NCBI RefSeq assembly: GCF_009827515.1
Contig: NZ_WTYO01000002.1
Span: forward strand, 310,001 to 374,000
DNA: 64,000 nt
Direction: 5' to 3'
Source of the DNA: Pelagerythrobacter marinus
Lineage (GTDB): Bacteria > Pseudomonadota > Alphaproteobacteria > Sphingomonadales > Sphingomonadaceae
In this document: positions 35,782-39,103 of the stretch, piece after piece
How the letters are laid out: every line of letters begins with the position of its first letter
Position numbering within the stretch: the stretch's first letter is position 1
The notes under the pieces: model-generated
The model's input: the letters and a program-made list of their open reading frames with translations, nothing else
Databases searched by the model: none
Told to the model about the DNA's origin: nothing
Translations under genes and position numbers: made by a program

Positions 35782-36579
35782 ATGGCAACGAAGTCCGAAC
35801 GGTTCAGCAGCCTGGTTCGCGTCGGCTATTTCAGCCGCGCGATCCTCTATTCCGTCCTCGGGCTGATCGCGCTCACCAGCGCCGGGCGCATTCGGCAGGG
35901 CACGAACGGGATATTCCAGGCGATCCAGGAATTCCCGCTCGGCACCGCGATCCTCTGGCTCATGGTGGTCGGCCTCGTCGCCTATGCACTGTTCCGGCTC
36001 GCCTCCCCGCTGTTCGATATCGAGAACCAGGGGAGCGACAAGACCGGGTGGGCGCACCGCATCGGCCATGCCGGCAGCGCGATCGGCCACCTCGCGCTCG
36101 CCTATTCGGCGTTCAACTTCGCCTCCTCGGGCTCCGACAACGGGGGCGGCGCGCAGGCGGCGGCGTCGGGCGTCCTGTCGGTCCAGTTCGGCGGGGCGAT
36201 CCTCGGCCTGCTCGGCATTGCCTTCATCGTCGCCGCGGTGTTCCAGGCCAAGAAGGGCTGGACGGGCGAATTCATGCACCGCATCGCACCCGGGGCCCCT
36301 TCGCAGACCCGCTGGCTCGGGGGGATCGGCTATATCGCCCGCGCGGTCGTGTTCCTCCTGATCGGCTGGTCGCTGGTTCAGGCCGGCTTCCTGTCGAGCG
36401 GCAGCGAACAGGTCCTGACGCTGGGCGACGCCGTGGCCAGCCTGGCCGACGACGGCGTGATCTTCACGCTCGTGGCGATCGGCCTGCTGATGTTCGGTTT
36501 CTTCAGCCTCGTCCTCGCGCGCTATCGCATCATTCCCGAGCTCGACGCCGAAGGGATGCGTCCGGCCTTCCGCTCCTAG
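35782..36579 (+). CDS. DUF1206 membrane protein
   Basis: The product is 265 residues with six predicted membrane helices arranged as three repeats of a two-helix unit. Each unit carries a similar Gly-Tyr/Phe-x-Ser/Ala-Arg-Ala start (for example Val-Gly-Tyr-Phe-Ser-Arg-Ala and Ile-Gly-Tyr-Ile-Ala-Arg-Ala). The function is unknown. An EcfG-type promoter directly upstream suggests it is part of the general stress response. Its stop shares CTAG (36576-36579) with the convergent MerR gene. Confidence 0.85.
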   Translation: MATKSERFSSLVRVGYFSRAILYSVLGLIALTSAGRIRQGTNGIFQAIQEFPLGTAILWLMVVGLVAYALFRLASPLFDIENQGSDKTGWAHRIGHAGSAIGHLALAYSAFNFASSGSDNGGGAQAAASGVLSVQFGGAILGLLGIAFIVAAVFQAKKGWTGEFMHRIAPGAPSQTRWLGGIGYIARAVVFLLIGWSLVQAGFLSSGSEQVLTLGDAVASLADDGVIFTLVAIGLLMFGFFSLVLARYRIIPELDAEGMRPAFRS

Positions 36580-36962
36580 TCGAAGGCGGCGAGGATCGGG
36601 CACGGCCCGGCATCGCCCCGCGCACAGTCGCTGGCCAGCCGGGCGAGCGACCGGCGGGCGGCGGCAAGGGCCGTGATCTGCGCGTCGAGCGCCGCGATCC
36701 GTTCGCGCGCCATCGCCCGGGCCCGCGGCCGGTCGTCGGTCCGGTCGAGCGCGATCAGCTCGGCAATCTCGGCCAGCGAGAAGCCCGCCGCCTGCGCCTG
36801 CCGCACGAAACGCAGGCGGCGCAGGTCCTCCGCGCCGTAGTGCCGCCCGCCGGGCGCGCTTCCCCGCGGCACGGCGAGCAGCCCCTTGCGTTGATAGAAT
36901 CGCACCGTTTCGACCCCGACCCCGCCGGCGCGGGCGAGATCGGAAATGCGCATCATTTTCAT
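36576..36962 (-). CDS. MerR-family metal-type regulator
   Basis: The product is 128 residues. It has a winged helix (Arg-Ile-Ser-Asp-Leu-Ala-Arg through Arg-His-Tyr-Gly), a dimer helix, and a C-terminal metal loop with Cys113 and Cys121 followed by Pro-Ile-Leu. The Cys-x7-Cys spacing is that of copper sensors such as CueR. The Cys that mercury MerR uses in the dimer helix (C82 in Tn501) is missing here. Yet the operator it faces (36965-36995) is close to the mercury-resistance operator. The inducing metal therefore remains open. It is divergent from the Grx-MauE gene, which it very likely controls. Confidence 0.88.
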   Translation of the reverse strand: MKMMRISDLARAGGVGVETVRFYQRKGLLAVPRGSAPGGRHYGAEDLRRLRFVRQAQAAGFSLAEIAELIALDRTDDRPRARAMARERIAALDAQITALAAARRSLARLASDCARGDAGPCPILAAFD

Positions 36963-36964
36963 GC

Positions 36965-36995
36965 TTGACTCCGTACCACGGTACGGAGGCTATGG
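36965..36995. promoter_or_regulatory. MerR-type operator-promoter with 19-bp spacer
   Basis: -35 TTGACT (36965-36970), 19 bases, -10 CTATGG (36990-36995). The spacer holds a perfect inverted repeat, CCGTACC-AC-GGTACGG (36971-36986). The 19-bp spacing is the hallmark of promoters untwisted by MerR proteins, and TTGACTCCGTAC with GTACGGA matches the known mer operator. The -35 lies 2 bases from the divergent merR start, so the regulator probably also limits its own expression. Confidence 0.9.
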
Positions 36996-37003
36996 AGGAA
37001 TGC

Positions 37004-37744
37004 ATGAGCGACGACAAGACCGCAACGCTGCACCGCATGGTCATGGACAAGCACGTCTGCCCCTATGGCGTGAAGGCCCGGTGGCTGCTGCAACGCCATG
37101 GCTACGCGGTGGACGACCGGTGGCTGACCACGCGCGAGGAAACCGACGCCTTCAAGCGGGAACACGGGGTCGATACGACGCCGCAGACCTTCATCGGGGG
37201 CGAGCGGATCGGCGGCTATAGCGAGCTGCGCGCTTTCCTGGGCAAGCCCCTGCCCGGCGAAGGCGCGACCAGCTATCGCCCGGTGATCGCCGTGTTCGCC
37301 ATTGCCGCCGCGCTGGCCATGGCGGCCAGTCACCTGGCGTTCGGCTCCGCCATCACCGTGCGCGCGGCCGAATGGTTCGTGGCCTTCACGATGGCGATCC
37401 TCGCCATGCTGAAGCTGCAGGACGTGGAACGCTTCTCGACCATGTTCGTCGGCTACGATCTCCTTGCGCGGCGCTGGGTGCCCTATGCCTATGCCTATCC
37501 GTTCCTGGAGGCCGGGGCCGGCGTGCTGATGGCGGCCCATGCGCTGAACTGGCTCTCGATCCCGGTGGCGCTGGTCATCGGCACGATCGGGGCGGCCAGC
37601 GTATTCTACGCCGTCTATGTCCAGAAGCGCGCGATAAAGTGCGCCTGCGTCGGCGGGTCTGGCAACGTGCCGCTCGGTTTCGTCTCGCTCACCGAGAACC
37701 TTTTCATGATCGGCATGGCGATCTGGATGATCGCCAGGTACTGA
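37004..37744 (+). CDS. Glutaredoxin-MauE/DoxX fusion membrane protein
   Basis: The product is 246 residues. Residues 1-85 are a glutaredoxin with Cys-Pro-Tyr-Gly at the active site (single cysteine, not the dithiol CPYC) and Thr-Pro-Gln-Thr-Phe-Ile-Gly-Gly-Glu-Arg-Ile-Gly-Gly. The rest has four membrane helices of the MauE/DoxX redox type, with Cys-Ala-Cys before the last helix. Together they suggest thiol/disulfide transfer across the inner membrane. GGAGGA sits 5 bases before the ATG. It is first in the unit controlled by the mer-like operator, 15 bases before the barrel gene. Confidence 0.85.
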   Translation: MSDDKTATLHRMVMDKHVCPYGVKARWLLQRHGYAVDDRWLTTREETDAFKREHGVDTTPQTFIGGERIGGYSELRAFLGKPLPGEGATSYRPVIAVFAIAAALAMAASHLAFGSAITVRAAEWFVAFTMAILAMLKLQDVERFSTMFVGYDLLARRWVPYAYAYPFLEAGAGVLMAAHALNWLSIPVALVIGTIGAASVFYAVYVQKRAIKCACVGGSGNVPLGFVSLTENLFMIGMAIWMIARY

Positions 37745-37759
37745 AGGAACACCACCTGG

Positions 37760-39103
37760 ATGCGTATCTCACTTCTCGCGGCGGCTGCCGCGCCCGCCCT
37801 GCTCGCCCCCCTTCCCGCGCTGGCCCAGACCGGCCCCGACGCGCCCCCCGGCATGGACGACGAACCGATCGATCATCCGCGCGATCGCGCGACGGTGGAT
37901 CATGGGGCAATGGACCACGGGGCGATGGACCACGGGGCGATGGACCACGGGGCGATGGACCACGGCCCCGCGCACGGCGGCGAAGGGTCGGGCACCTCGC
38001 GCCTTCCCGCGAACGAGACGATGGACCACGGCGCGGCGATCGATCTCGGCGGCGATGCCAGCCTGATGCTCCACGGCTTCGTCTGGCCGGTCTATACCGA
38101 CCAGGGCGGCCCGCGCGGCGACGACAAGTTCTACGTCCAGTCGATGGCCATGGCGACGCTGGAAAAGCCGTTCGACGGGGGCAAGCTGACCCTGCGCACG
38201 ATGATGAGCCTCGAACCGGCCATGCGGCACGACGGCTATCCCAACCTCTTCGCCACCGGCGAAGTCGCCTATGGCGAACCGCTGGTCGACCGGCAGCACC
38301 CGCACGACCTGTTCATGGAACTGGCAGGCAGGATCGAGGTCGATATCGGCGAGAATACGAGCGCCTTCCTCTACGGCGGCCCGGTGGGCGAGCCGGCGCT
38401 GGGGCCGAGCGCGTTCATGCATCGCGCCAGCGCCCGCTACAACCCGGAGGCGCCGATCACCCATCACTGGTTCGATTCGACCCATATCACCTACGGCGTC
38501 GTGACGGCCGGCATCGGCGGACCGGCCTGGCAGCTGGAGGGCAGCGCCTTCCGCGGCCGCGAGCCGGACGAGTTCCGCTGGAACATCGAGGCGCCGCGGC
38601 TCGATTCGTGGAGCGTGCGCGCCAGCTTCGCCCCCGCCCCGGCGTGGCTGCTCCAGGCGAGCTACGGCCAGATCGACGAACCCGAGGCGATGCACGGCGG
38701 CGCGGACGAACACCGGACGACCGCCTCGGTCCACTACAACGACGGGCGCGGCCTGTCGGCCATGGCGGCATTTTCCGCCAAGGACCGCCGGCCCGGCGAC
38801 ACGCTGACCGCCTGGCTGGGCGAAGTGAACTGGGATCTTTCCGATCGGCACACGCTGTTCGGCCGGGTCGAGAACGTGAAGAACGACGAGCTTTTCCCCG
38901 ATCACCACGATCCGCTGCACCACGAGGCGTTCCGGATCACCAAGTTCCAGGCCGGCTATGCCTATCGCCTGCCGCTGGGGCCGGTTAACGTGGCGCTGGG
39001 CGGCAGCCTCTCCGCCTTTGCCAAGCCGGCGGAACTGGACCCCTATTACGGAGACAGCCCGATGGGCTACACGCTGTTCGCGCGATTCAGCCTGGGGGAC
39101 TAG
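37760..39103 (+). CDS. Outer-membrane barrel-like protein with Met/His repeat
   Basis: The product is 447 residues. A Sec signal ends at Ala-Leu-Ala-Gln. A low-complexity zone (about residues 35-90) follows, with four copies of Asp-His-Gly-Ala-Met, rich in His and Met and well suited to bind copper, silver or similar soft metals. The remaining 350 or so residues alternate polar and aromatic strands and end in Phe-Ser-Leu-Gly-Asp, like an outer-membrane beta-barrel, though the last residue is not Phe. I do not recognise a characterised family. It is co-transcribed with the Grx-MauE gene and preceded by GAAGGA, so a role in metal handling at the envelope is inferred. Confidence 0.75.
   Translation: MRISLLAAAAAPALLAPLPALAQTGPDAPPGMDDEPIDHPRDRATVDHGAMDHGAMDHGAMDHGAMDHGPAHGGEGSGTSRLPANETMDHGAAIDLGGDASLMLHGFVWPVYTDQGGPRGDDKFYVQSMAMATLEKPFDGGKLTLRTMMSLEPAMRHDGYPNLFATGEVAYGEPLVDRQHPHDLFMELAGRIEVDIGENTSAFLYGGPVGEPALGPSAFMHRASARYNPEAPITHHWFDSTHITYGVVTAGIGGPAWQLEGSAFRGREPDEFRWNIEAPRLDSWSVRASFAPAPAWLLQASYGQIDEPEAMHGGADEHRTTASVHYNDGRGLSAMAAFSAKDRRPGDTLTAWLGEVNWDLSDRHTLFGRVENVKNDELFPDHHDPLHHEAFRITKFQAGYAYRLPLGPVNVALGGSLSAFAKPAELDPYYGDSPMGYTLFARFSLGD
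37904..37963 (+). repeat. 15-bp tandem repeat, four copies, coding for a Met/His-rich segment
   Basis: The unit GGGGCRATGGACCAC occurs four times without gaps (37904-37918, 37919-37933, 37934-37948, 37949-37963). Only one base differs, in the first copy. In-frame, it encodes Gly-Ala-Met-Asp-His. Near-identity of the units indicates recent expansion by slippage, so copy number may vary between strains. Confidence 0.9.

Follow-up and report, generated by a model that had tools for sequence, protein, structure and literature searches.

A MerR-glutaredoxin pair with an optional porin-fold partner as a putative copper-responsive unit in Pelagerythrobacter marinus

SmGrx3 (SMa0280) of Sinorhizobium meliloti, which joins an N-terminal CPYG glutaredoxin (Grx) to a C-terminal MauE domain, shows low deglutathionylation activity, has yielded no mutant phenotype and is without an assigned function (PMC6315971). 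A protein of the same build is encoded in a stretch of 64,000 nt from Pelagerythrobacter marinus (NZ_WTYO01000002.1; hereafter the window, within which all coordinates are counted), where its gene lies divergent from that of a MerR-family regulator and is followed by a gene for a predicted outer-membrane barrel. We propose, with a probability of roughly two in three, that this locus is a copper-responsive unit that would protect the cell envelope and would answer Cu(I) and probably also Ag and Au.

Two kinds of described regulators resemble the one in the window. The mercury MerR of Tn21/Tn501 shares its DNA-binding part, operator palindrome, -35 element and over-long spacer; its Hg ligands are Cys82, Cys117 and Cys126 (PMC5027573), and the Hg-MerR consensus operator in proteobacteria is TCCGTAC-N4-GTACGGA (PMC1526738; also PMC11049809). 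CueR/HmrR shares the two-cysteine C-x7-C loop and copper-linked targets, but its operator differs (ACCTTCC...GGAAGGT, as at E. coli copA). Unlike mercury MerR, the window regulator has no Cys82, a 20-bp spacer and no adjoining mer genes; unlike CueR/HmrR, it belongs to another clade and has no clear counterpart of Ser77. Moreover, it falls below the cut-offs of both NCBIfam models, with 94.9 bits for TIGR02051 (mercury MerR; cut-off 150.85) and 84.1 bits for TIGR02044 (CueR; cut-off 147.4).

The regulator and its operator

The regulator is encoded on the minus strand at 36576..36962 by an open reading frame of 128 aa that matches the Pfam families MerR_1 and MerR-DNA-bind. The first-pass annotation of this DNA, made from the sequence alone, had assigned it the cysteine spacing of CueR and denied it the extra dimer-helix cysteine of mercury sensors, and both statements held when relatives were aligned. 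Cys113 and Cys121, separated by seven residues, are invariant in 23 aligned orthologues. In trees that included Hg MerR, CueR, ZntR and CadR, 25 selected MerRs linked to Grx-MauE or to the barrel formed one clade (support 96/94, then 100/98); besides the window regulator, the selection comprised 17 taken from the 25 barrel loci that have such a MerR and 7 found on plasmids. The C-x7-C loop is present in every one of these 25 regulators, as it is in 6/6 CueR. The column of the Hg ligand Cys82 is occupied by Arg in 24 of the 25 and by His in the other one, and by Arg in 6/6 CueR; one regulator, that of locus L058, has a Cys three residues ahead of this column. The residue near positions 77-82 mainly sets selectivity for +1 versus +2 ions (PMC9909328), and the C82Y mutant of Tn501 MerR is badly impaired in dimerization and Hg binding (PMC5027573), which, together with the missing Cys82, argues against a diverged Hg(II) sensor.

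The DNA-reading end points the other way, and it is here that a mercury-responsive module finds its support. The clade groups with Hg MerR and separately from CueR, at 96/94 in a first tree with three Hg MerRs and at 99/89 after a divergent fourth was added; with that addition the Hg group became non-monophyletic, at a weak support of 80/48, so that the clade may be either sister to Hg MerR or derived from within it. Mean identity over residues 4-44 is 56% to Hg MerR versus 34% to CueR and over residues 45-70 it is 54% versus 41%, whereas over residues 71-126, which comprise the dimer helix and the metal loop, it is 27% versus 31%. We infer that the regulator probably senses ions of the Cu(I)/Ag(I) type while reading DNA in the manner of a mercury MerR.

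The sequence between the two divergent genes reads TTGACT-CCGTAC-CACG-GTACGGA-GGC-TATGGA. It contains, on the plus strand, a -35 element TTGACT (36965..36970) and a -10 element TATGGA (36991..36996), and between them the palindrome TCCGTAC-CACG-GTACGGA (36970..36987, strand not assigned), an exact match to the published Hg-MerR consensus (PMC1526738) and thus a further point for a mercury response. With up to three mismatches allowed, the operator pattern had a single match in the 3.0-Mb genome; read backwards as a control, it had none. Among 44 distinct operator sequences of relatives, TTGA is invariant and is followed by C (42 sequences) and then T (43 sequences), and the positions of the palindrome are mostly invariant or near-invariant. 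A TAT starts 20 bp past TTGACT in 42 of the 44 and a CAT in the other 2, a count that is partly circular, since the pattern used for the scan had TATA at 20 bp and tolerated four mismatches; as the fourth base of the element 35 sequences have A and 9 have G, and the base ahead of it varies. The 19-bp spacer given in the first-pass annotation was off by one: the distance from TTGACT to TATGGA is 20 bp, while mercury mer promoters from three plasmids read 19 bp.

Two further observations concern the promoter. The -10 element ends 7 nt ahead of the grx-mauE ATG, and most orthologues from Sphingomonadales have a gap of 6-10 nt at this place, which makes a leaderless transcript probable. The merR ATG abuts the -35 element, and therefore autoregulation of merR is implied by the arrangement.

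The target genes and the conserved unit

The second gene (37004..37744, plus strand) encodes a protein with Pfam domains Glutaredoxin and MauE and several hydrophobic stretches in its hydropathy profile; the protein is a member of the SmGrx3 family. Cys19 of the CPYG motif and Cys213 and Cys215 of a CAC pair are invariant in 24 aligned sequences. A search of plasmids gave 299 records with a relative, and in 285 the match covers at least 80% of the query. Novelty of all the parts does not hold, for the fusion had been published as SmGrx3/SMa0280, without a function (PMC6315971). In the literature searched, which held few subscription papers and no supplements and is therefore weak evidence of novelty, we found no link between SmGrx3 or any other Grx-MauE and either copper or a MerR regulator, and no description of the barrel or of the MerR/Grx-MauE pair. 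A copy on S. meliloti pSymA, possibly SMa0280 itself, is accompanied by the operator and by a MerR of the clade to which the window regulator belongs; no barrel is annotated beside it. One match (L216) appeared to contain a stop, and this was set aside, tblastn giving a reading frame without one. Glutaredoxin matches about 50% identical and limited to the Grx part (about residues 1-80) were seen in four genomes (G018, G033, G032 and G017), one of them with an internal stop. The membrane part of the fusion is presumably akin to small DoxX-type proteins. Proteins of the DoxX type occur in copper-induced operons, namely gigPABT and the Caulobacter SigF genes (PMC10304878, PMC8224329); in the parts of these papers that were available, no glutaredoxin domain is mentioned, and control is by a sigma factor (stated for Caulobacter, assumed for gig) and not by MerR.

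The third gene (37760..39103, plus strand) starts 15 nt after the grx-mauE stop and encodes 447 aa. Structure prediction by AlphaFold bore out its first description as a barrel: the model is that of an exported outer-membrane-type barrel, and structural comparison matched it to the general 16-stranded porin fold over the barrel region. Preceding the barrel is a predicted disordered, Met/His-rich N-terminal arm that contains a (DHGAM)4 run (37898..37957, plus strand). The three genes, the mer-type palindrome and this run had all been named beforehand and are all present in the window. The exact run occurs in 1 of 66 aligned family members and looser tandem [D/N/G]H-x-x-M runs of at least three in 10, the Met/His-rich arm itself being common across the family. 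The window protein matched no Pfam family at E 0.001 and no solved structure by sequence profile at E up to 1; Porin_4 is weakly matched in 21/66 members (best E 0.00017), the window protein reaching 17.3 bits against a cut-off of 27. By its predicted fold and family profiles, the barrel is an uncharacterised porin-fold family, with matches at E 1e-10 in 14 of the 398 genomes sampled from the phylum, its own included. With CopB/PcoB it shares export as a barrel, the Met/His-rich N-terminal arm and adjoining copper genes, and a local profile match hints at a possible remote kinship (hhalign probability 90%, partial over 113 columns and with both profiles shallow; reversed controls 2-3%). It is larger than CopB/PcoB, however, and CopB is absent from the seven Pfam families matched by any of the 66 members at E 0.1.

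Conserved co-occurrence of the three genes outside this genome had been set beforehand as a test, and it was found. Among the best 80 of 454 confirmed barrel loci, 22 have all three parts, 2 have Grx but lack MerR, 3 have MerR but lack Grx, and 53 have neither in the DNA available; the trio also occurs on two Sphingobium plasmids. The 25 loci with a clade MerR are the same 25 that have the operator at no more than two mismatches. At the other 55 no operator was found at up to five mismatches, although two of them (L114, L115) hold less than 600 nt upstream and are too short to tell. Upstream of MerR-less barrels (52 of these 55 loci), CsoR-, CueR- and mer-type sites were found at 3, 2 and 1 loci, not above the means of 9.85, 5.15 and 2.15 for shuffled sequence. 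In a phylum sample of 398 genomes, 54 of which have a Grx-MauE match, we used the 29 best-scoring loci with 1.5-kb flanks, excluding the locus under study. The operator was present in 11/11 loci with a clade MerR (at most three mismatches) and in 0/18 without it, where no site was better than eight mismatches and where 3 of the 18 have a CueR-like regulator instead. Owing to relatedness, the operator counts from the barrel loci and from the Grx-MauE loci are not independent.

A fixed three-part system, as first envisaged, is not what these comparisons show. Six congeneric genomes all have Grx and two have the barrel; Grx-MauE was also strongly matched in 21 further relatives, and 11 of these have MerR next to it. 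With four of the six congeners having Grx without the barrel and 53/80 barrel loci lacking both other genes, conservation is greater for the MerR-Grx pair, and the barrel is an optional partner. What survives of the envelope soft-metal module proposed in the first-pass annotation is a likely soft-metal MerR, with a loop resembling that of CueR and an operator resembling that of mer, ahead of genes for a membrane glutaredoxin and a Met/His barrel; the fixed trio was lost. Genes that we take to be ychF, MutL and MaoC lie within 6 kb of the barrel at 56, 44 and 43 of the 80 loci, respectively, and this recurrence suggests an old chromosomal site.

Copper context and competing explanations

Several loci connect these genes with copper. 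In Croceibacterium salegens (L108), a clade MerR 73% identical to that of the window and its operator directly precede a P-type ATPase, which scores 599.5 bits for TIGR01511 (copper ATPases; cut-off 397), and then the barrel. Methylobacterium has Grx-MauE and a true CueR (163.1 bits; cut-off 147.4) in divergent orientation, together with a CueR-type site, and the Paracoccus copy follows downstream of a second true CueR (165.8 bits). We picked 14 Grx-MauE plasmid records by hand (12 from the 299 Grx matches, and L048 and L049 via the barrel). In 11 of them, genes annotated for copper, a heavy-metal ATPase or CueR lie within 5-8 kb; of the remaining three, L049 has only DUF305, and L033 and L186 only MerR. 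To the same context belong the Sphingomonas loci L105 and L110, where a clade MerR and the operator stand immediately ahead of a barrel, and a Pontibacter barrel with a copper ATPase nearby. These associations make copper the best-supported signal of the module. A merR-copA pair of Alteromonas (PMC8478169) was considered as a second link to a copper ATPase and rejected, its MerR falling outside the clade and no mer-type site being visible in the two gaps inspected.

On this basis, the following sequence of events can be envisaged. Within the MerR dimer, Cys113 and Cys121 would hold Cu(I) in a linear site like that of CueR. The regulator, sitting on the mer-type palindrome, would then untwist the over-long 20-bp spacer, as might be expected from its family, so that RNA polymerase could transcribe grx-mauE and the barrel gene. 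Membrane-anchored and glutathione-dependent, Grx-MauE may keep copper-damaged or copper-loaded envelope thiols reduced by means of Cys19 and the CAC pair. The Met/His arm and the invariant loop histidines of the porin may bind copper and either sequester it or guide it out, in the manner of CopB/PcoB. In this scheme the MerR-Grx pair would form the core of the unit and the barrel an optional partner.

A number of points weigh against copper. In one of the three Hg MerRs compared, the cysteine pair permits a C-x7-C reading beside its C-x8-C, and therefore loop spacing alone is no proof of copper; the same ambiguity favours a mercury response. The best NCBIfam score of the regulator and its nearest solved relative are mercury MerRs, and the site of CueR Ser77 is an alignment gap in the clade, with no conserved Ser and no clear counterpart. 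Judging from the common ychF/MaoC neighbours, shared ancestry may lie behind part of the recurrence of the trio. L108 is the single locus examined that ties the clade directly to a copper ATPase, and the figure of 11/14 plasmids is a raw count without a background rate for random plasmid genes. The genome under study has, elsewhere, a CueR-like regulator (143.3 bits, just under 147.4) and a copper ATPase. The SmGrx3 mutant showed no phenotype, with no copper test on it mentioned in the sections available of the review (PMC6315971), and we came across no data on the expression, metal binding or metal phenotypes of these parts.

As to alternatives, the barrel could be merely a neighbour, the MerR-Grx pair having been inserted upstream of a resident porin gene without a functional link. 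The 53 barrel loci without MerR and Grx, often near ychF and MaoC, and the four congeners that keep Grx and lack the barrel speak for such an insertion. Against it stand the trio on two Sphingobium plasmids, MerR and the operator directly before the barrel without Grx in Sphingomonas (L105, L110) or before a copper ATPase and the barrel (L108), the Pontibacter barrel near a copper ATPase, and the Met/His arm, and we regard it as unlikely. A thiol-redox or electrophile switch, in which thiol stress, whether oxidative or caused by copper, would join the two cysteines in a disulfide and the unit would answer thiol damage in general, would fit the glutaredoxin being the most conserved target, and SMa0280 carries the mark HS, taken to mean heat shock, in a table of PMC6315971. 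The CPI[IL] loop of the clade regulators and its spacing, however, are those of metal-sensing MerRs, and associations with a copper ATPase and with CueR would be unexpected, so that such a switch appears quite improbable. The least probable, by a narrow step, is a mercury-responsive module with Grx-MauE shielding thiols from mercury: apart from the missing Cys82, the spacer is 20 and not 19 bp, the targets are copper-linked and not merTPA, no MerA above its cut-off is present in the genome, and on the one Grx-MauE plasmid with a mer cluster about 4 kb off the regulator is CueR. We therefore retain a copper response as the preferred explanation.

Other observations surround these subjects. Elsewhere in the genome (G000:C14:39530-41256; L143, L149), a MerR stands beside a MerA-like flavoprotein under the MerA cut-off (307 of 454 bits). 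A copper island (G000:C10:36000-67000; L140, L141, L145) carries a CueR-like regulator and the sole copper ATPase over the TIGR01511 cut-off, together with what we take to be an RND-type pump and a DUF411-like gene. On a Leptolyngbya plasmid (L187), a cyanobacterial Grx-MauE lies beside a CopA-family gene and a cation ATPase, with glutathione reductase about 4 kb on. CsoR-like palindromes (ATACCCC...GGGTAT) stand upstream of Grx-MauE at L009, L010 and L011, where no MerR is adjacent, and are a possible third kind of copper control on this gene. By a rough count, about 27/80 barrel loci have, just upstream of the barrel, a gene for a small secreted protein that carries a C-x-G-C or C-C-x-x-C motif (among them L055, L064, L065, L075, L085 and L172); three examples scanned had no NCBIfam match. 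Finally, a second mer-type operator (two mismatches) before a DUF305-like gene at position 194 of L076 suggests a wider regulon there.

Implications

What was claimed from the sequence holds, and genomic context appears to give good support to the interpretation in terms of copper. A broader proposal, which we advance tentatively and hold to be somewhat short of an even chance, is that a mercury-sensor lineage kept the mer operator, remodelled the sensing end to accept copper(I) and now commands a previously unassigned copper-tolerance pathway of SmGrx3-type glutaredoxins and, in Sphingomonadales, new Met/His-armed copper porins. What is new here is the copper link of the Grx-MauE/MerR module, the fusion itself being known as SmGrx3. 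Our comparisons suggest a copper-defence role for this family, and thereby offer a testable function for a published orphan group of glutaredoxins that extends from rhizobia to cyanobacteria. The barrel adds an uncharacterised porin-fold family to the likely outer-membrane copper proteins. The regulator, for its part, points to a natural case in which a metal sensor appears to swap its metal while keeping its DNA address, and this apparent swap bears on cross-talk in mer-based biosensors.

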